The notes under the pieces were generated by a model. The model saw only the letters and a program-made list of their open reading frames with translations. It was not told the DNA's origin and ran no database searches. 26,939 nucleotides of DNA from a virus. Every line of letters begins with the position of its first letter. Position 1 is the first letter of the stretch. The stretch covers positions 1 to 26,939 of IMG/VR virus record IMGVR_UViG_3300008999_000032; one strand, given 5' to 3'. Below, in pieces: positions 1,053 to 26,592 of the stretch. Position numbers and translations under genes: made by a program.

Positions 1053-1313
1053 ATGGAAACAGAATTAGTTACGCATATAAAGGACTTCGGGTTCCCGATA
1101 GTTGCCGCTGTGGGTATGCTCTACATGATCTATTTCGTGTGGAAGACCATCACAGAAGAAGTGGAAAAAAATCTGGAAGAAACTACAACTACTCTAATCG
1201 GTTTGATAGATCGTATTAGAATGCTTGATAATGATATTATCCGATTGCAACAGAAGTTGGACACAGTAATCGAAATGAGGAATCAACAGAATGAAAAAGA
1301 AGACGAAAATTAG
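1053..1313 (+). CDS. Small membrane protein, holin/YvrJ-like, second copy
   Basis: Eighty-six residues with one N-terminal membrane segment at about residues 12-30 (FGFPIVAAVGMLYMIYF). An acidic helical tail follows and is likely to form a coiled coil (LIDRIRMLDNDIIRLQQKL). The KDFGFPI opening matches KELGFPI in the protein at 297. The tails also share the pattern of a short coil after the membrane segment. Its 3' end overlaps the csgF-like gene by 23 bases, so translation of the curli-like block is probably coupled to it. Confidence 0.65.
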   Translation: METELVTHIKDFGFPIVAAVGMLYMIYFVWKTITEEVEKNLEETTTTLIGLIDRIRMLDNDIIRLQQKLDTVIEMRNQQNEKEDEN

Positions 1314-1755
1314 TCTAGGAGTCTGTGTACTGATTATCGGTATTTTATCGGTCACATCGACAGACGCTTCTCCGATTGAACACAAGTTCAAGTCTCCATC
1401 GTTTAGTGGCATCAACCAATCCAGTCACTACCTTACGATTGAGAATCAAGAGACTTCTCGGAAAGACGCAATCAAACAAGAATTGAAAGACCTTCAAGAA
1501 CAGTTGGAGAGAGATGCCGAGAACACGACTCTCGCAAAGTTTATTAGAAATGTGGAAAGTAGAATCTACTCTACATTGTCGAGACAGATTGTTGACGGTA
1601 TGTTTGGGGAGAATCCTTCTACGAGTGGTGAGTTCAACATAGAAGGAACAGGTATATCATATGTCACCGATGGTGATGTAGTGATATTAACAGTTACAGA
1701 CGAGGATGGCAGTGTTACGACTATTACTATTCCCCTTGGTGATTTTGGTATCTAG
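1291..1755 (+). CDS. csgF: CsgF-like curli assembly protein
   Basis: CsgF is the periplasmic and surface partner of the CsgG pore; its N-terminus plugs the channel and it helps anchor the curli subunit. This 154-residue protein has a signal peptide (hydrophobic core about residues 8-22, likely cleavage after DAS or nearby). FKSPSFSG (33-40) follows and corresponds to the FRNPNFGG segment of Escherichia coli CsgF. The C-terminal beta-rich part also fits the family: a polar turn, then VVILTVTDEDGSVTTITI, comparable with the end of CsgF. Length is close to the usual 138. GAGG ten bases before the ATG supports the start. It overlaps csgG by 50 bases. The order csgF-csgG with no csgE is unlike the E. 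coli operon. Confidence 0.85.
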   Translation: MKKKTKISLGVCVLIIGILSVTSTDASPIEHKFKSPSFSGINQSSHYLTIENQETSRKDAIKQELKDLQEQLERDAENTTLAKFIRNVESRIYSTLSRQIVDGMFGENPSTSGEFNIEGTGISYVTDGDVVILTVTDEDGSVTTITIPLGDFGI

Positions 1756-2524
1756 TTGTGCTTCTATTGGTGGTAGTCAATTTGAAATACCGACAAGAGA
1801 GGGTGCAACAGTTCAGTTAACTTTACTACAAGAAGAACTGATCAGTGTGGGTCAACCTAAAAGAAAACCTACAGTTGCAATATACCAATTTACAGACCAG
1901 ACAGGGCAGAAGAGACAGAACAGTAGTGGCGGGACTAGTTTTAGTTCTGCGGTTACTCAGGCACCAGACGTATATCTGATACGTGCGTTGACTCGTGCCG
2001 GTGACGGAGAATTCTTTAGGGTAGTAGACCGTCAAATAATTGACCATGTGACGAGAGAACGACAGTTAATTCGTCAAACACGTCAATCTTACGAGGGAAA
2101 TGACTCTCAGAAGCTGCCAGCGTTAAGTTTTGCTGGTATGATAATTGCAGGAGGTATAGTAGGATACGATACTTCTATTGACACAGGGGGTGCAGGCGCC
2201 AGATATCTTGGTATAGGTACTTCTCGTCAATTTAGCATAGACACGGTGACAGTCAATTTACGACTGGTGTCAGTTGCAACAGGTGAAGTTTTACTTGATG
2301 TCATCTCAAGTAAAACCATACTCTCTACTGGAATCAGTGCAGATGTATTTAGATTTATAGAACAGGGTACAGAACTGGTTGAGGTTGAATCGGGTGTTAC
2401 TCAAAACGAATCGGTCTCGATTGCGACACAACGTGCGATAGAGACTGGAGTCCTCGAACTCATTAGACTAGGAGAGTCGAAGGGGTTCTGGGAATTAATG
2501 GAGAAAGAAGAGAATGAACGTTAA
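1706..2524 (+). CDS. csgG: CsgG-like curli secretion channel lipoprotein
   Basis: CsgG is an outer-membrane lipoprotein that assembles into a nonameric beta-barrel pore for export of curli subunits. The 272 residues match the family over the full length (E. coli CsgG has 277). A lipoprotein signal ends in LVSSC with Cys18. Family segments include VAIYQFTDQTGQ (57-68), GGAGARYLGIGTSRQF (161-176), VNLRLVSVATGEVL (183-196), SKTILS (202-207), FRFIE, and AIETGVLELI near the end. Start choice is uncertain: GTG at 1712 has GAGG six bases upstream, whereas the ATG at 1706 has that GAGG immediately adjacent. Either start keeps the signal peptide. The gene begins inside csgF and overlaps the curlin-like gene by 11 bases. 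Confidence 0.95.
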   Translation: MAVLRLLLFPLVILVSSCASIGGSQFEIPTREGATVQLTLLQEELISVGQPKRKPTVAIYQFTDQTGQKRQNSSGGTSFSSAVTQAPDVYLIRALTRAGDGEFFRVVDRQIIDHVTRERQLIRQTRQSYEGNDSQKLPALSFAGMIIAGGIVGYDTSIDTGGAGARYLGIGTSRQFSIDTVTVNLRLVSVATGEVLLDVISSKTILSTGISADVFRFIEQGTELVEVESGVTQNESVSIATQRAIETGVLELIRLGESKGFWELMEKEENER

Positions 2525-3233
2525 ACAAATAGGTTTTGTGATGATGTTCTTGATAGGCACCGCATACGCTGATAACCAAATCTACATCGACCAAGTTGGT
2601 GCAGCTGCAGTTATCGAAGTTATACAGGACGGTTCAGGAAACAAAGTTGGTGGGTCTGTTACAGATGATACTAAAATGTTACTGAGTGGTGATAACATGG
2701 ATTTCAATGTCAACCTCTCTGGTGGTAGTAATAACGTGATAGGTAGTGTTATTGGTACATCCACGGTAGATATTGATGTCGATGGTTCTACAAATAACAT
2801 AGGTTTCGATGTCGATAAGGATAATGTGTATGGCGCTACAGATGGGAACTACGTAATTAATGTTACTGGTGGTAATAATGATTTAGACATAGATGTTGCT
2901 TCACTAGATACTGCAAATGATGTAGACTTTGATTTTGTATTAACTGGTGATTTCAACGAAGCTGATGTCAATATCGATGCATCAAGTTTGACTTTTGACT
3001 TGGACGTGGCGGGAGATAACAACAGTTTACTATACAATGCAAGTGGATATGATGGTCACGAATTCATATTGACTGGTACTGGTAGTTACTGGGATGTTTT
3101 TGTAAATCAAGAGTCTACATTGCAATCCGATACATTGGAGATAGACTATGATGGTTCGGGGACTAGTGACACATCCTCTACATTATGTATTACTCAGTCT
3201 GATTCTGGTACTGCCACAGGTTGCTCACCCTAA
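2514..3233 (+). CDS. Secreted curlin-like / beta-solenoid protein
   Basis: Two hundred and thirty-nine residues with a clear signal peptide (cleavage probably after GTAYA, residue 19). The mature protein opens with curlin-style spacing: IDQVG at 25-29, then IQDGSGN at 37-43. This matches the Q-x-G-x-x-N pattern of CsgA and CsgB repeats. Irregular repeats of about 20-25 residues follow, alternating D/V/I strands with turns such as GGSNN (70-74), GSTNN, GGNN, GDFNE and GDNN. This is expected of a beta-solenoid or amyloid. Two Cys residues lie near the C-terminus (225, 237). Its place right after csgG makes it the likely substrate. It is larger and far more Asp-rich than E. coli CsgA (151 residues). 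A calcium-binding adhesin is the main alternative. Confidence 0.7.
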   Translation: MNVKQIGFVMMFLIGTAYADNQIYIDQVGAAAVIEVIQDGSGNKVGGSVTDDTKMLLSGDNMDFNVNLSGGSNNVIGSVIGTSTVDIDVDGSTNNIGFDVDKDNVYGATDGNYVINVTGGNNDLDIDVASLDTANDVDFDFVLTGDFNEADVNIDASSLTFDLDVAGDNNSLLYNASGYDGHEFILTGTGSYWDVFVNQESTLQSDTLEIDYDGSGTSDTSSTLCITQSDSGTATGCSP

Positions 3234-4269
3234 TACAGATGTGGGTTCCGTAGATCGTGCAGTTGGATGGAGACAGATACTTAGAGACACAACTAAGATT
3301 GAACCCTTAACGGGGCAGGACGTAATCTCGAAGGATGATCTTCGCACAGGCGAGGGTCGCCTTCAGGTTCGTTTTGTAGATGACAGTAAATTACGAATGA
3401 CCGAACACACCCGCATTGTTATTGACAATGTGGTCTTTGATGAAGACCCAAGTAAGTCAGACTTGGCGATGACTTTCGCCCAAGGAACTGCCAGATTTAT
3501 CTCTGGACAACTGGGTAAGGTTGACAAGGAGAACATCAGACTCAAGACACCCACCGCATCTATCGGTATTCGGGGAACAGACTTCACGGTCACAGTTGAT
3601 GAGTTCGGACAAACCCTCGTGGTACTCTTGCCCGATGTGGACGGAATATCATCTGGTGAAATTATTGTTTCGACAATGACAGGTGAAGTAGTACTCAACA
3701 AACCATTCGAAGCAACAAGAACAACTGTACAAGAAACCCCGCCTAGCGCACCCGCAATCCTAGACTTGACTCTGGATATGTTGGATAATATCATGATTAT
3801 CAATCCTCCCAAGAAGAAACAAACCGAAGAAGAATTTCTCATGGATGTGAATGCATCCAAGAACATCAACCCCCTTGACCTAGACTTTCTAGACCAAGAC
3901 CTGTTAAACGAAGAAGAACTGGAACGAGACTACCTTGAGTTTGGTGAACTTGATATTGACTACTTAGATGTAGAACTACTGGAGAACCTACTGGATACTT
4001 TCGATTCTTTGGGTGAAGAACTGTTGGAAGAGAGTCCGAGTACTGGTGAACTTAACCTTGAGGGAACCGAAGAGGGATACGACACGATTACCCAAGTCGC
4101 AACTATTGTTGAGGGCGATAAGGTGTCGGTCAATAGGGAAGTAAACGATACAGTCCATATATCGGTTGACAAGAGTTCGTACACAACGATCAATATAGAA
4201 CAAGATGGAAAAGAACTAGACCCCATAAAAATTAATGGACTTGGTACAACGATAAATATAGTACAATGA
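3148..4269 (+). CDS. Periplasmic FecR-domain protein with acidic C-terminal region
   Basis: Three hundred and seventy-three residues. The start has a good ribosome binding site (GGAG, seven bases spacing) and a signal peptide at about residues 12-26. It overlaps the curlin-like gene by 86 bases in another frame. A FecR domain covers about residues 35-185: VGWRQIL, a strand with LQVRFVDDSKLRM, then LKTPTASIGIRGTDF (132-146), whose GIRGTDF is diagnostic. FecR domains transmit signals across the envelope or bind cell-surface polymers. A very acidic Leu/Asp/Glu segment follows (about 225-295). The C-terminal beta part includes PSTGELNLEGT, shared with the CsgF-like protein, and curlin-like INIEQDG. 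No cytoplasmic sigma-factor partner is seen; the next gene, a CHASE2 cyclase, is the plausible partner. Confidence 0.85.
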   Translation: MMVRGLVTHPLHYVLLSLILVLPQVAHPNTDVGSVDRAVGWRQILRDTTKIEPLTGQDVISKDDLRTGEGRLQVRFVDDSKLRMTEHTRIVIDNVVFDEDPSKSDLAMTFAQGTARFISGQLGKVDKENIRLKTPTASIGIRGTDFTVTVDEFGQTLVVLLPDVDGISSGEIIVSTMTGEVVLNKPFEATRTTVQETPPSAPAILDLTLDMLDNIMIINPPKKKQTEEEFLMDVNASKNINPLDLDFLDQDLLNEEELERDYLEFGELDIDYLDVELLENLLDTFDSLGEELLEESPSTGELNLEGTEEGYDTITQVATIVEGDKVSVNREVNDTVHISVDKSSYTTINIEQDGKELDPIKINGLGTTINIVQ

Positions 4270-6086
4270 AAACATGGCACGTACTTATTACACTCGGTCT
4301 TCTGGTTGGTCTAAGGTTACTTGACCCATTCCTACTAGAAAGCACACGACTCTCATACTTTGATTCACTACAGAGATCACAAGACGTTACGTCAAGTGAA
4401 CAGATTGTACTGGTGGATATAGACGAGAAGACCCTAGACAAATTCGGACAATACCCGATTCCTAGAGAGGTCATGGCAGATGAGATAGACAAGATTGAGA
4501 GTAGTATCATTGCGTTCAATATCTTGTTCTCAGAACCAGACAGATTTGGGGGTGATGAACACTTTGCGGACATCCTATCATGGAAACAAGCAGTAGTTGC
4601 CATTGCACCATCCAACAGAACCAACACAGACTACAGACCACCTCGTATCGGTACTGCGACATTCGGTGACAGGGATGCCGAAGACTTCAGACCAGAACTG
4701 GGTGGTATGTTGTTTGCCCAACCAATAATACATGACAATGCATTTGGATATGGTACAATATCATCCGCACAGGATGTTGATGGTATCATTCGTAGACAAC
4801 CACTATTAGAACACTTTGATGGCAGACTCTATCCCGCATTTGCGTTAGATGTACTACGAGTTGCCGCAGGGGATTCATCTTACCAGATATCCACGGATGA
4901 CTATGGTATTCAGTTCGTTCGTATCCCCAAGTTCAAACCAGTAACCACAGATGCGACTGGTAATGTCACTATCGCATACTGGAATGAGTTCAAGAGGTAC
5001 TCGTTCACGGAACTGGACACTATACCAGAAGGTTCGATAATCATCGTAGGTGCGACTTTCGAAGGTTCTAGTGTAGTATCTACTCCGATGGGTTCTATGT
5101 ATCCCCACGATGTTCAAGCGAACCTAGTCAAGACGATGATTGATGGTGTAGTCTTAAAACGACAGTCAGAATTTATTTTCTATGAGGTATTGACAACTCT
5201 TGTTTTGTGTGTTATACTCTTAGCTCTGTTAGGGAAGGCTAATATACTCGTTTCAGGCGTGTCATTCTTCGTCATAATCGGTGGTATCCTGTACATAATT
5301 TATGATTTATTTCGCACATACTTTGTGCAACTAGACCCGACATTCCCTATCATAACACTGACCCTAGTGTTCGCTCATGGTTCCTTTGTACAGTTCTATA
5401 CACAGTTCAAAGCAAAACAAATGATTAAGGGACAGTTTGGTACATACCTTTCACCAGACATGGTTGATATGTTGGCAAAAGACCCTAGTCTGATGAAACT
5501 GGGTGGTGAGAGAAAGGAGATGACCTTCTTGTTTATGGATATATGCGGGTTTACTCCGATATCTGAACACTACAAAAACAAGAACGATGCAGAGGGTTTG
5601 GTCACATTAATTAACAATTATCTTAATGAAATGACTAATATTATCCTAAATAATGGTGGCACAATCGACAAGTACATGGGTGATTGTATTATGGCATTCT
5701 GGAATGCACCACTACCATGTGAAAATCATGCCGAGATGGCAGTCAAATCCGCAATAGAGATAGAAGAGAAGACGAATGAACTTAGACGACAATATAGTGA
5801 ACAGGGTTTACCCCCCATCAATGTTGGAACTGGTATCAATACAGGCACTTGCATTGTTGGTAATATGGGTAGTGAGTCAAGGTTTGATTATTCAGTCATC
5901 GGAGACTCCGTCAACCTTGCCGCAAGACTCGAAGCAACTGCCGCTCGAGGAGACTACCTCGAATATAAAACAATCTACTCCAGTAACACAATGGAACAAC
6001 TTACCAACATTGAATCGAGATCGATAGGTCAGATCAAGGTTAAAGGTAAAGAAGAACTCATTGACATCTATACTTTTCGTTCCTAA
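4266..6086 (+). CDS. CHASE2-domain class III adenylate cyclase
   Basis: Membrane-bound sensor enzyme predicted to make cAMP. One N-terminal membrane segment (about 5-20) precedes an extracytoplasmic CHASE2 domain (about 25-295: FDSLQR, IVLVDIDEKTL, IPREV, NILFSEPD, then VDGIIRRQPLL and DGRLYPAFALDVLR). Three membrane segments (about 302-375) and a cytoplasmic cyclase domain (about 410-606) follow. Catalytic residues are intact: metal ligands D425 (FMDICGFT) and D473 (DKYMGD), adenine-selecting K469, S543 in DYSVIGD where class IIIb cyclases usually have Thr, and transition-state N550 and R554 (VNLAARLE). The ATG overlaps the fecR stop (ATGA), so the two are translationally coupled. Guanylate cyclase activity is unlikely given Lys469. 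Confidence 0.93.
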   Translation: MKTWHVLITLGLLVGLRLLDPFLLESTRLSYFDSLQRSQDVTSSEQIVLVDIDEKTLDKFGQYPIPREVMADEIDKIESSIIAFNILFSEPDRFGGDEHFADILSWKQAVVAIAPSNRTNTDYRPPRIGTATFGDRDAEDFRPELGGMLFAQPIIHDNAFGYGTISSAQDVDGIIRRQPLLEHFDGRLYPAFALDVLRVAAGDSSYQISTDDYGIQFVRIPKFKPVTTDATGNVTIAYWNEFKRYSFTELDTIPEGSIIIVGATFEGSSVVSTPMGSMYPHDVQANLVKTMIDGVVLKRQSEFIFYEVLTTLVLCVILLALLGKANILVSGVSFFVIIGGILYIIYDLFRTYFVQLDPTFPIITLTLVFAHGSFVQFYTQFKAKQMIKGQFGTYLSPDMVDMLAKDPSLMKLGGERKEMTFLFMDICGFTPISEHYKNKNDAEGLVTLINNYLNEMTNIILNNGGTIDKYMGDCIMAFWNAPLPCENHAEMAVKSAIEIEEKTNELRRQYSEQGLPPINVGTGINTGTCIVGNMGSESRFDYSVIGDSVNLAARLEATAARGDYLEYKTIYSSNTMEQLTNIESRSIGQIKVKGKEELIDIYTFRS

Positions 6087-14526: not shown

Positions 14527-14910
14527 ATGTCCAAACCAATGGGACTAAAAGAATTCATTAAGGTTGTTGAGTCACCAGACGAAGCGTTGAATATTCAACA
14601 ACGTCTGAAACTCTCACGATCTCTCAAGAAAAATAAAGCCAAGATTGCAATGGGTCGTAAACGTGCGGCTCGTAAAACTGCAAATATGGACACTCTCAAA
14701 AAACGTGCAATGAAACAAGCACGCAACATGATAATCAAAAAAATCACTAAGGGACAAGACAAGGGCGATATGTCAATGGCTCGAAAACAGTCTATTGAGA
14801 AACGTCTAGATAAGATGAAACCTAAGATTGCGAAAATTGCGAAGAAGATTCTTCCTAAAGTACGCAAGATGGAAATGGAAAGAAAAAAAGGTAAACAGTC
14901 CAGTGATTAA
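14527..14910 (+). CDS. Very basic small protein, likely nucleic-acid associated
   Basis: One hundred and twenty-seven residues, roughly a third Lys or Arg, with helical repeats (RKRAARKTANMDTLKKRAMKQ, MIIKKITKGQDKGD). I recall homologues of similar composition in cyanophage-like genomes, without a function. A start at Met5 (MGLKEFIKVVES) is also possible; the Val-Val-Glu there is only a weak form of the (L/I)xE leader. Such a basic protein could bind DNA in the head. AAGGGG before the ATG supports the start. It overlaps the following gene by eight bases. Confidence 0.65.
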   Translation: MSKPMGLKEFIKVVESPDEALNIQQRLKLSRSLKKNKAKIAMGRKRAARKTANMDTLKKRAMKQARNMIIKKITKGQDKGDMSMARKQSIEKRLDKMKPKIAKIAKKILPKVRKMEMERKKGKQSSD

Positions 14911-16489
14911 AGATTTTAAGTCGTATCTAGTAGAAGAAGCGAAGGAAGTTTATTTTACGTTTGGTAGAATGAATCCTCCCACTATCGGTCATGGTAAAGT
15001 ATTAGATACCATTGCAAAGAAAGCGAAAGGTGCAGACTGGAAAGTCTATGTGTCTCAGTCTACAGGCGCAAAAGACCCTCTGTCATATTCTGACAAGGTA
15101 AAACACCTACGCAAGATGTTTCCCAAGTATGGTCGAAACATCATGGTTGATAAAGAAGTAAAAACAGTATTTAATATCGCTGCAAAGTTGTATGACCAAG
15201 GATACAAACGAATCACTATGGTAGTCGGTCAAGATCGTCTACGTGAGTTCGAAGTGTTGTTGAACAAGTACAATGGTAAAAAGGCACGTCATGGATTCTA
15301 TAATTTCGAATCTATTAATATCGTTTCTGCGGGTCAAAGAGACCCTGATGCAGAGGGTGTGGAAGGTATGTCCGCATCTAAACAACGTGCCAATGCAAAA
15401 GATAACGATTACACAGCTTTCACACAGGGTGTCCCATCGACCATGTCGGACAGAGACACTCGTAAGTTGTTCAATGACGTAAGGAAGGGTCTTGGTCTCA
15501 AGGAAGAGACATCTTTCAAACGTCACATCGAATTACCAAGGGTATCTGACCTAAGAGAACAGTTTGTTAAAGGTGAACTGTTTGAACTGGGTGATACTGT
15601 TGTTATCAAAGAGTCCGAAGAAGTTGGTGTCGTGTCGGTCTTGGGTTCGAACTATGTTATCGTGGAATGCGGTGACAAGAAGGTTCGTAAGTGGTTAGAT
15701 GCAGTAGAACTGGTCGAGAAAAAAGCACCCCAAGACTCTGACATTAAAGATAAAGAAGGCACTCAACCCAAGAAGTACTATGCGGGTTTGGAGAAGTCTA
15801 CCAAATCAAAACGAGATGCACACTTCAAGAAACATGGTAAGAAAGCAGACGATGATGACTCTGCATATAAACCAGCTCCAGGCGATGCGACCGCAAAAAC
15901 AAAACCATCCAAGTACACCAAACAGTTCAAGGATATGTACGAGGAAGTATCTCAGAAACAACTCAATGATCTTGAGAAGTTTGCGGATAGACTCCTTGCT
16001 AAGTTTGATGTTGATGTTGAGTTTACACGTCACTTCGCTGATCGTATGAATGACAAACGTAATGACCCACCTATTACAGTGGCAGAGTTACAACGTGTAT
16101 TCAAGAAGATTGCGAAGAGAAAGGCGAAGAACATTCGTCAGAATCCTGATAGTGAAGCGGTCATCAAAGACTTACAGACTGACCTGAACCTTCCTGTTGT
16201 TATTAACTACGACCGTAAGAAAGAAGAGTTCGAAGTTATTAACAAAACAATAATGCGTAAGAAGAACTTCAAGACTACATCTAACGTTATTACTACAGAG
16301 AATGCTGGTGAGGAAGGTACTGACACACTCGTCAAGAAGTATAAGAAAGATACTCCGATGGAAGATGCAGTAAAGACTGCACAGACAAAAATTAAACGAG
16401 AGAAAGAATCGGATAGGAAGAAACACGATGCGATTCTTGATCGTGCAAGACTTGCACGTGCAAAGGCAAAGAATAGGTCAACAAAATGA
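14903..16489 (+). CDS. HIGH-type nucleotidyltransferase fused to KOW-like and DUF5872-like domains
   Basis: About 528 residues from GTG 14903; an upstream ATG at 14828 would add 25 basic residues inside the previous gene and seems unlikely. IKDFKSYLVE at the N-terminus fits the (L/I)xE capsid-targeting pattern. The nucleotidyltransferase domain (about 12-195) has GRMNPPTIGH (21-30, TxGH nucleotide-binding motif), VVGQDR (107-112) and MSASKQR (156-162), as in NMNAT/CTP-transferase enzymes. A KOW/SH3-like domain follows (about 226-273), then KSTKSKRDAHFKKHGKKADDD (DUF5872-like). The C-terminal domain (about 355-463) has FTRHFADRMNDKR. The substrate cannot be read from sequence; NMN adenylylation or protein/RNA modification are options. 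Confidence 0.75.
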   Translation: MIKDFKSYLVEEAKEVYFTFGRMNPPTIGHGKVLDTIAKKAKGADWKVYVSQSTGAKDPLSYSDKVKHLRKMFPKYGRNIMVDKEVKTVFNIAAKLYDQGYKRITMVVGQDRLREFEVLLNKYNGKKARHGFYNFESINIVSAGQRDPDAEGVEGMSASKQRANAKDNDYTAFTQGVPSTMSDRDTRKLFNDVRKGLGLKEETSFKRHIELPRVSDLREQFVKGELFELGDTVVIKESEEVGVVSVLGSNYVIVECGDKKVRKWLDAVELVEKKAPQDSDIKDKEGTQPKKYYAGLEKSTKSKRDAHFKKHGKKADDDDSAYKPAPGDATAKTKPSKYTKQFKDMYEEVSQKQLNDLEKFADRLLAKFDVDVEFTRHFADRMNDKRNDPPITVAELQRVFKKIAKRKAKNIRQNPDSEAVIKDLQTDLNLPVVINYDRKKEEFEVINKTIMRKKNFKTTSNVITTENAGEEGTDTLVKKYKKDTPMEDAVKTAQTKIKREKESDRKKHDAILDRARLARAKAKNRSTK

Positions 16490-19562: not shown

Positions 19563-19570
19563 TATAAATA
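19563..19570 (+). promoter_or_regulatory. T4-type late promoter box
   Basis: TATAAATA in the 38-base gap between genes, 18 bases before the ATG at 19588. It is intergenic and correctly placed, so it is more credible than the internal box at 14321. Confidence 0.65.
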
Positions 19571-19587
19571 GAACTATACTTAATTTA

Positions 19588-19920
19588 ATGGGAAAAGATG
19601 TAATGGCAACAAAGGAAACTCAAGCAATAAGACTTGCTCGAATTGAGACAGATTCGACTGCTCGTTTTGATCGTTTGGAAGATAAGATCGATAAGGTTGC
19701 GGAAGCTCTCGTTGCATTGGCCCGAGTAGAAGAGAAGATGATCGCCTTGGACAGGAATAACAGTAATAATTTTGATAGGATGAACAGATTCTCTCAGAAG
19801 TTAGATGAAATAGAAAAAAAAGTGGATGATAATGCCCACACTGTTGCAATTATCAATAAAGTTGTGTACTTAATAGGGGCTGCAATAATTGCGGGTCTCG
19901 TAAACTATTTGTGGATGTAG
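19588..19920 (+). CDS. Coiled-coil protein with C-terminal membrane anchor
   Basis: One hundred and ten residues. A long helical region with heptad pattern (IETDSTARFDRLEDKIDKVAE and on to about residue 85) leads into a C-terminal hydrophobic segment (VVYLIGAAIIAGLVNYLWM). This layout resembles XhlA-type hemolysin/holin accessory proteins and other tail-anchored phage proteins. ATG 19603 (MATKETQ) is an equally plausible start because GGGA stands ten bases before it. Late promoter box at 19563. Confidence 0.65.
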   Translation: MGKDVMATKETQAIRLARIETDSTARFDRLEDKIDKVAEALVALARVEEKMIALDRNNSNNFDRMNRFSQKLDEIEKKVDDNAHTVAIINKVVYLIGAAIIAGLVNYLWM

Positions 19921-24603: not shown

Positions 24604-26592
24604 ATGACCCTCAAGATTGATAAGAAGAAAGATTCCCTACTCGCTGAATATGCAGTAGGTATGTTAAAAGATTTTTATTTGAATGATTATGAAAAGAGTC
24701 CACAAGAGGGTTTCGCAAGAGCTGCAAAAGCATGGTCTAAGTACCGAGATGAAATGGATGACGAGTTAGCACAACGTCTGTATGACTACGTGTCTAATAA
24801 GTGGTTCATGTTCGCCTCCCCTGTTCTGTCAAATGCACCCAATGGACATGATGCAAAGAACAAAGGTATGCCTATCTCTTGTTTCCTCACATACGTACCC
24901 GACAGTCTTGAAGGACTGATCAGTCACTCATCTGAATTACGATGGTTGTCTGTAATGGGTGGTGGTGTCGGTGGACACTGGTCTGACGTAAGAACTGTAT
25001 CAGACATTGCGCCTGGCCCGATGCCATTCCTACACACTGTTGATGCAGATATGATTGCATATCGACAGGGTAAGACTCGTAAGGGTTCTTATGCCGCTTA
25101 CATGGATATCTCTCACCCAGATATCATTGAGTTCCTCAATATGCGTATCCCGACAGGTGATGTACAACGTAAAGCATTGAACCTACACAACGCTATCAAT
25201 GTCTCGGACGAGTTTATGGAAGCAGTAAAACAAGGAAATTCTTTTGATCTTCGTGACCCTAAAGATGGTAGTGTTAAAGATAGTACTGATGCACGTAAAC
25301 TATGGGAACGTATTCTAGAGACACGATTCCGCACAGGTGAACCTTACCTGAACTTCATTGATACCGCAAATCGTGATTTACCACAACCACTACAAGATAA
25401 AGGATTAAAGATTCATGGTTCCAATTTATGTAACGAGATTCATCTACCCACAGATGCAGATCGCACTGCCGTATGTTGCCTATCTTCTCTCAATCTAGAG
25501 TACTATGACGAGTGGAAAGACACTTCTATTGTACGTGACATTGTACGAATGCTCGATAATGTATTAGAGTACTTCATTGACAATGCACCCGACACTATCT
25601 CTCGTGCAAGGTATTCTGCACAACGTGAGAGAAGTATTGGACTAGGTGCAATGGGTTTCCATTCCTTGTTGCAGAAACATGGAGTTGCATGGGAGTCAGA
25701 AGCTGCACGAGAGATCAACCGAACTGTATTCCAACATATCAATGAGGAAGCAGTCGCAGAAACCAAACTACTTGCCGAAGAACGTGGTGAGTATCCTGAT
25801 GGTGAGGGGAGTGGACGAAGAAACTCTCACTTGATGGCAATCGCACCAAACGCATCATCTGGTGTTATTTTGAGTACAAGTCCTTCTATCGAACCATTGA
25901 AGGCAAATGCATATACTCACCGCACACGTGCTGGTTCTTTCCTAGTGAAGAACAAGTACTTGACTCAGTTACTTGATGATAAAGATGAGAACAACGAGTC
26001 CAACTGGACATCAATCATTACCAACAAAGGTTCGGTACAACATTTACCATTCTTCACAGAAGGTGAAAAGGCTGTATTCAGAACTGCGGATGAACTTGAC
26101 CAAACATGGGTTGTACAACACGCTGCAGAAAGACAACCATTTATATGTCAAGGTCAGTCAGTTAATTTATTCTTCCCTGCTGGTGCAGCGAAGTCTTATG
26201 TGAACAAGGTACACTTAAAGGCATGGAAGGATGGACTTAAAGGTCTATACTATCTACGCACCGAGGCGAAACAACGTGCCGAGAATGTATCGGAGAAGGT
26301 AGAAAGGGTCGCACTACAAGGTGACACCCGATCAATCGTCTATACTAAAGGTAACTGTCCATTCTGTGCAATGGCGATGGAAGAACTCAAGTTGAGAGGA
26401 ATACCATTCGACAAGGTTGATCTTGCAGATATCGGTAAGACCGCAAGAGAAGTGACAGGTCGAGATGTTAAGACAGTACCACAAATTTATATTGAGGGTG
26501 AGTATGTAGGTGGGTATGAGGATTTGATGGAACACCTAAACAAACCAATAGAAATAGAAGAGTCCGATGAATGTCGGGCTTGCGAAGGATAA
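24604..26592 (+). CDS. nrdA: Ribonucleotide reductase large subunit with glutaredoxin domain
   Basis: Class I ribonucleotide reductase alpha subunit, which makes deoxyribonucleotides for phage DNA synthesis. The 662 residues lack the N-terminal ATP-cone. Core features are MPISCFL (Cys93), SNLCNEIHLP (274-282, radical Cys276 and Glu278), AVCCLSSLNL (289-298, partner Cys), MAIAPNASSG (411-420) and the tyrosines GLYYLRTEA (547-555). A glutaredoxin domain (about 576-648) is inserted with NCPFCAM (Cys585, Cys588), VKTVPQIYI and GGYEDL. The last residues DECRACEG carry a Cys pair (657, 660) like the usual redox-shuttle tail, so the glutaredoxin sits between core and tail. nrdB follows nine bases after the stop. 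Confidence 0.95.
   Translation: MTLKIDKKKDSLLAEYAVGMLKDFYLNDYEKSPQEGFARAAKAWSKYRDEMDDELAQRLYDYVSNKWFMFASPVLSNAPNGHDAKNKGMPISCFLTYVPDSLEGLISHSSELRWLSVMGGGVGGHWSDVRTVSDIAPGPMPFLHTVDADMIAYRQGKTRKGSYAAYMDISHPDIIEFLNMRIPTGDVQRKALNLHNAINVSDEFMEAVKQGNSFDLRDPKDGSVKDSTDARKLWERILETRFRTGEPYLNFIDTANRDLPQPLQDKGLKIHGSNLCNEIHLPTDADRTAVCCLSSLNLEYYDEWKDTSIVRDIVRMLDNVLEYFIDNAPDTISRARYSAQRERSIGLGAMGFHSLLQKHGVAWESEAAREINRTVFQHINEEAVAETKLLAEERGEYPDGEGSGRRNSHLMAIAPNASSGVILSTSPSIEPLKANAYTHRTRAGSFLVKNKYLTQLLDDKDENNESNWTSIITNKGSVQHLPFFTEGEKAVFRTADELDQTWVVQHAAERQPFICQGQSVNLFFPAGAAKSYVNKVHLKAWKDGLKGLYYLRTEAKQRAENVSEKVERVALQGDTRSIVYTKGNCPFCAMAMEELKLRGIPFDKVDLADIGKTAREVTGRDVKTVPQIYIEGEYVGGYEDLMEHLNKPIEIEESDECRACEG

Follow-up and report, generated by a model that had tools for sequence, protein, structure and literature searches.

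Why would a T4-type phage carry genes for curli export, and why should these be joined to a FecR-domain gene and a CHASE2 adenylate cyclase gene? The question is raised by the virus record IMGVR_UViG_3300008999_000032 of IMG/VR, whose positions 1 to 26,939 form the stretch analysed here (the window). The initial annotation, made without database searches, had read five overlapping genes at 1291-6086 as CsgF-like, CsgG-like, curlin-like, FecR-domain and CHASE2-cyclase genes of a T4-type phage. ORFs (open reading frames), Pfam matches and relatives bear out these identities, the common strand, the overlaps and the type of phage. The limits were drawn too narrowly: the unit has at least seven genes and begins at about 282-297, with two small membrane proteins ahead of csgF. 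We propose, with moderate confidence, that the whole is a late envelope operon in which export of a curlin-like protein would be combined with a FecR-CHASE2 sensor making cyclic AMP (cAMP); export, fibres and cAMP are predicted from sequence.

The five ORFs all lie on the + strand and overlap one another. The first encodes a homologue of CsgF, the curli chaperone or adaptor (1291-1755, +; PF10614, 2e-17), whose N-terminus has a hydrophobic signal by hydropathy. It is followed by a homologue of CsgG, the outer-membrane curli pore (1706-2524, +; PF03783, 6e-48), which carries the lipobox LVSSC and aligns over almost its full length with the E. coli CsgG structure in the PDB (E=1e-44). The third gene, for a beta-rich repeat protein resembling CsgA/B (2514-3233, +), has no Pfam match by itself. 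Its orthologues match Curlin_rpt (PF07012) weakly (20 of 28 at E<=1, best 0.0018) and their alignment holds invariant Q-x-G-x-x-N motifs, while the structure model is all-beta with a pLDDT (predicted local distance difference test score) of 76. A Foldseek search of this model against the PDB returned nothing at E<=0.001, and weak beta-helix neighbours only. The Pfam scan of the block proteins found neither CsgE nor CsgD, and Wittmers et al. 2022 (PMC9599517) likewise report them missing.

What stands ahead of csgF? Two proteins of about 90 amino acids, smA (297-575, +; 92 aa, phrog_18771), which opens the unit, and its paralogue smB (1053-1313, +; 86 aa, weakly holin-like), each have one transmembrane segment and a coiled-coil-like tail. 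Between them the window has an optional insertion ORF (575-1051, +; 158 aa, with a C-terminal transmembrane segment) that is restricted to its closest relatives. At least one small protein of this size precedes csgF in 41/41 untruncated loci, and two do in 38/41. Both small genes are present in six of 50,697 phage records, all six being HTVC008M or Melnitz strains with curli genes. The linkage is strict, and we infer that the pair are dedicated inner-membrane partners of the module.

The place of this pair matters for a published label. Wittmers et al. 2022 describe the module as headed by one or two histidine kinases. The small pair shows no kinase domain, and neither HTVC008M nor Melnitz nor any of eight viral records has HATPase_c. 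Because the small pair occupies the position in question and lacks a kinase domain, the label is not supported in the loci read here; for the nine podophage genomes of that paper a correction is only suggested. The first 45 kb of one podophage, MW574966, have no annotated curli genes, and this phage is likewise missing from the CsgG search matches. ORFs of at least 180 aa directly before csgF were found in 5/76 loci, each with the radical SAM motif CxxxCxxC, on which their label is based. They are about 285-309 aa long and lie between the small membrane genes and csgF (L073 4469-5389, L072 6441-7367, L063 2333-3184, L058 6499-7353 and L060 5707-6561). The radical-SAM-like protein might modify the exported curlin.

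When would such a unit be expressed? The motif TATAAATA is the T4 late promoter consensus. The window has six copies of it on the + strand and none on the - strand. One copy (282-289, +) is the putative late promoter of the block, with the start codon of smA 15 nt past its first base; another (80-87, +) precedes a small ORF at 108-290. Of 49 distinct regions upstream of the first block gene, 32 show the motif no more than 120 nt away; in 26 it sits at -13 to -16 relative to the first ATG. Upstream of the inner genes it is found in 1/53 cases for csgF, 0/50 for csgG, 0/48 for the curlin gene (cur1), 0/47 for fecR and 9/45 for the cyclase gene. Since the motif precedes the first gene and almost never csgF, csgG, curlin or fecR, late transcription of the unit from a single start is most likely, with an additional start ahead of the cyclase in some loci, the timing being predicted from the motif.

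Is the block a stable entity? The initial annotation had asked for co-occurrence of its five genes in fixed order among related phages, and the support is strong. The complete block is present in 41/41 untruncated loci. A search with smB alone, an independent starting point, found csgF next in 64/64 loci, csgG in 61/61, curlin in 60/60, fecR in 54/54 and the cyclase in 42/43, the denominators being loci with room for the gene in question. The FecR domain is present in 27/27 relatives. The ratio of nonsynonymous to synonymous substitution rates (dN/dS) is 0.03-0.24 for all seven genes where measurable, indicating purifying selection. Chimeric assembly, a concern of the initial annotation, is ruled out by a second contig that is 99.8% identical over 5,051 bp and by the gene order repeated in all untruncated relatives. 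Members of the window's clade share the genes downstream of the block (6601, 7291, 7654), whereas HTVC008M, Melnitz and other branches have different neighbours around it. The block thus behaves as a movable unit, in agreement with the transfer of the module between phage families implied by Wittmers et al. 2022. Two complete curli blocks (L084 and L085) come from contigs assigned to metagenome-assembled genomes (MAGs) of Sphingobacteriales and of Planctomycetaceae, one each; these are almost certainly phage contigs put into wrong bins.

The last two genes of the block were taken by the initial annotation as sensing modules of the envelope. The FecR-domain protein (3148-4269, +; PF04773, 1e-11) has a signal-like N-terminus, the FecR domain, an acidic linker and a beta-rich C-terminal domain ending in IxIxQ, a tail seen in 33/34 FecR proteins and 5% of background ORFs. 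Its structure model resembles the cell-surface signalling domain of PupR (6ovk, E=1e-4). A hydrophobic segment covers residues 5-23 with no domain ahead of it, so the cytoplasmic N-terminal anti-sigma part is lacking, and no sigma factor that could be a FecI-type partner was seen among the Pfam-scanned genes. The C-terminus looks curlin-like by eye (STGELNLEGT compared with STSGEFNIEGT); its assignment to a curlin or CsgF fold was dropped after profile comparison (P 0.01-0.04, not significant).

The cyclase (4266-6086, +) consists of CHASE2 (PF05226, 6e-38), a transmembrane part and a class III adenylate cyclase domain (PF00211, Guanylate_cyc, 8e-20). All six catalytic and substrate residues are present (D425, K469, D473, D547, N550 and R554), comprising the two metal Asp, the adenine-type Lys/Asp pair, the Asn and the Arg; with this complete active site the enzyme is predicted to make cAMP. 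The site is complete in 22/23 cyclase relatives. The exception is the Melnitz cyclase (L083 11502-13553), which may be weakened or changed in activity, since its catalytic Asn is replaced by Ser.

Does the pairing of FecR with CHASE2 have a precedent? Of 77 bacterial loci with the nearest cellular FecR relatives, about 13 also have a CHASE2 gene no more than about 8 kb away; the 77 leave out the phage blocks L084 and L085. The BiofilmReg operon of Burkholderia has FecR beside a CHASE2 kinase (PMC5192318). In S. meliloti, a CyaD1 that lacks CHASE2 makes cAMP constitutively, and the same cAMP regulator has a FecR-domain protein among its targets. As FecR and CHASE2 are neighbours in bacteria too, the phage proteins are read as a signalling pair of bacterial type that has been attached to a curli exporter. 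The pairing thus supports the sensor role assumed at the outset; that the pair senses the pore or the curlin is an inference by analogy.

What, then, would read the cAMP? We looked at the SAR11 family, picked through two genomes with a 16S sequence that we take to be the SAR11 probe, from 385 genomes drawn in one bacterial class; 117 genomes of the family were sampled. The cNMP (cyclic nucleotide monophosphate)-binding domain PF00027 is absent from 112/117, although some of these genomes may have gaps and the search covered this one cAMP-binding fold. It is found in 5/117, while the response-regulator domain PF00486, a positive control, is found in 115/117. The same domain was not found in the ten phage records tested. 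Class I cyclases occur in 0/117 genomes and class III cyclases in 3/117. The two clear cases of the latter are most likely the phage module inside SAR11 bins, because they match the phage CHASE2 cyclase and a CsgG gene lies 3-4 kb off on the same contig. Given the 112 genomes without the domain, a CRP-type reading of cAMP in SAR11 is unlikely, and the earlier claim that host cAMP signalling is changed becomes doubtful for this family. These host results hold for the SAR11 branch and not necessarily for the window's contig, since its GC content is 41.5%, compared with 33.5% for the HTVC008M locus.

Taken together, we propose that many marine T4-type phages carry an operon, smA-smB-csgF-csgG-curlin-fecR-(second curlin)-CHASE2 cyclase, that would run a late envelope programme. 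Late in infection a CsgG-CsgF pore would be inserted in the host outer membrane and export the curlin-like protein, so that the dying cell would gain an amyloid-like surface. The periplasmic FecR and the CHASE2 receptor would act as one sensor pair that reads the status of the pore or of the curlin and sets cAMP production, with the small membrane pair as inner-membrane partners of the module. In SAR11 hosts a CRP-type receptor is probably not what reads the cAMP. Holding virions, debris and neighbouring cells together at lysis is the likeliest benefit. Several points tell against this proposal. CsgE is absent from the scanned block, the window's curlin protein is recognisable through relatives alone, and the FecR C-terminus has no significant profile similarity to curlin or CsgF. 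HTVC008M has no exact TATAAATA before smA. The window's own host may own a cAMP receptor, and the Melnitz authors did not see infected cells clumping under their culturing conditions.

Could the module serve lysis instead? Extending the pinholin/secretin idea of the Melnitz paper, the CsgG-CsgF pore and a holin-like small pair would permeabilise the envelope and time lysis, with the curlin secondary. This explanation is tentative and less probable than the export operon, yet it keeps real weight. The holin family phrog_4898 is matched weakly by 17/27 small-pair members (best 3.7e-5) and YvrJ by 6/27 (best 0.017); the late promoter also fits, and the idea is the Melnitz authors' own. However, no phage record that lacks curli genes has the small pair, which speaks against a general lysis gene; the genes for curlin and FecR are conserved and evolve under purifying selection; and virions are too large to pass the outer-membrane pore CsgG. 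A combined form, in which the late operon couples amyloid export to lysis through the small pair as a holin-like gate, run by a curlin-monitoring FecR-CHASE2 cyclase with cAMP private to the phage in a SAR11 cell that has neither its own cyclase nor a CRP-type receptor, is unlikely.

Three other roles have been put forward, all of them in Wittmers et al. 2022. Superinfection exclusion by a fibre coat, also suggested by the initial annotation, is improbable: surface fibres could shield receptors, but it fits less well because the promoter is of the late type and would leave early infection unprotected. An uptake pore for nutrients or cofactors, with CsgG importing during infection and FecR as an iron-type sensor, is quite improbable. 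The match of the FecR fold to 6ovk agrees with it, but the curlin and CsgF are conserved without a known import role, the anti-sigma part and the sigma partner are missing, and the timing is late. It is highly improbable that the cyclase and FecR control the phage curli genes through host cAMP as in enterics, where cAMP leads to CsgD-like control. The cyclase is indeed intact, but the receptor domain is absent from nearly all SAR11-family genomes and from the phage records, the promoter of the block is a phage late promoter, and no histidine kinase ATPase domain was found in the phage records examined.

If infected cells turn sticky shortly before lysis, as the late envelope operon would have it, both the contribution of viral lysis to particle formation and the way phages reach new hosts would change. 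The few cAMP receptors in SAR11 genomes sharpen a vague regulatory label into the question of what reads the cAMP, and two small membrane proteins in the kinase's stead change the model to be tested.

Elsewhere in the window, the T4-type setting is seen in NrdA, NrdB, cyanomyophage-like genes and the TATAAATA motifs on the + strand. At 24604-26592 the large subunit of ribonucleotide reductase is fused to a C-terminal glutaredoxin domain (PF00462, 5e-12); the closest phage record, Phage C48C1, has a counterpart of almost the same length overall. A 553-aa protein at 14828-16489, amid T4-like genes, has a nucleotidyltransferase-like domain (PF01467) followed by a long C-terminal part. A 110-aa coiled-coil protein with a C-terminal transmembrane segment (19588-19920) has its own TATAAATA upstream at 19563; its layout resembles that of XhlA-type accessory lysis proteins.

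How does the module compare with known systems? The module, its gene order and several proposed roles are already published: Wittmers et al. 2022 describe it in SAR11 podophages and myophages, and the same block is annotated in GenBank for HTVC008M (KC465899, infecting HTCC1062) and Melnitz (MZ577097, infecting OM43). The continuation into FecR and cyclase, which the initial annotation identified correctly and for which it named no precedent, is therefore not new. As far as the literature covered goes, the late promoter of the module, the obligatory small membrane pair in the kinase's place and the finding that the SAR11 family almost wholly lacks cAMP receptors and native cyclases appear to be new; the passages of Wittmers et al. 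2022 that were searched mention neither the late promoter nor the missing receptor. With that phage type VIII secretion system (T8SS) module the window has in common CsgF, CsgG, CsgA/B, FecR, the adenylate cyclase and their order, with a second curlin as an optional member. The differences are that the genes ahead of csgF are two membrane proteins of about 90 aa (with a radical-SAM-like ORF in five relatives) and not histidine kinases, and that the window's clade lacks the second curlin. HTVC008M and Melnitz have the window's gene order including the small pair, with cyclases 44% and 36% identical to the window's; unlike the window they have one more curlin-repeat gene, placed after fecR and before the cyclase, as well as other flanking genes and lower GC. 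The E. coli curli T8SS (csgDEFG-csgBAC) has CsgG, CsgF and, judging from weak matches of relatives, probably curlin repeats in common with the window, whose block is a single polycistronic unit to which FecR and the cyclase are added and in which the Pfam scan found no CsgE or CsgD. With the FecR-CHASE2 pairs of Burkholderia and relatives (PMC5192318) the phage module has in common a periplasmic FecR-domain protein by a CHASE2 receptor; the output of CHASE2 is a histidine kinase in Burkholderia BiofilmReg and a cyclase in the phage.

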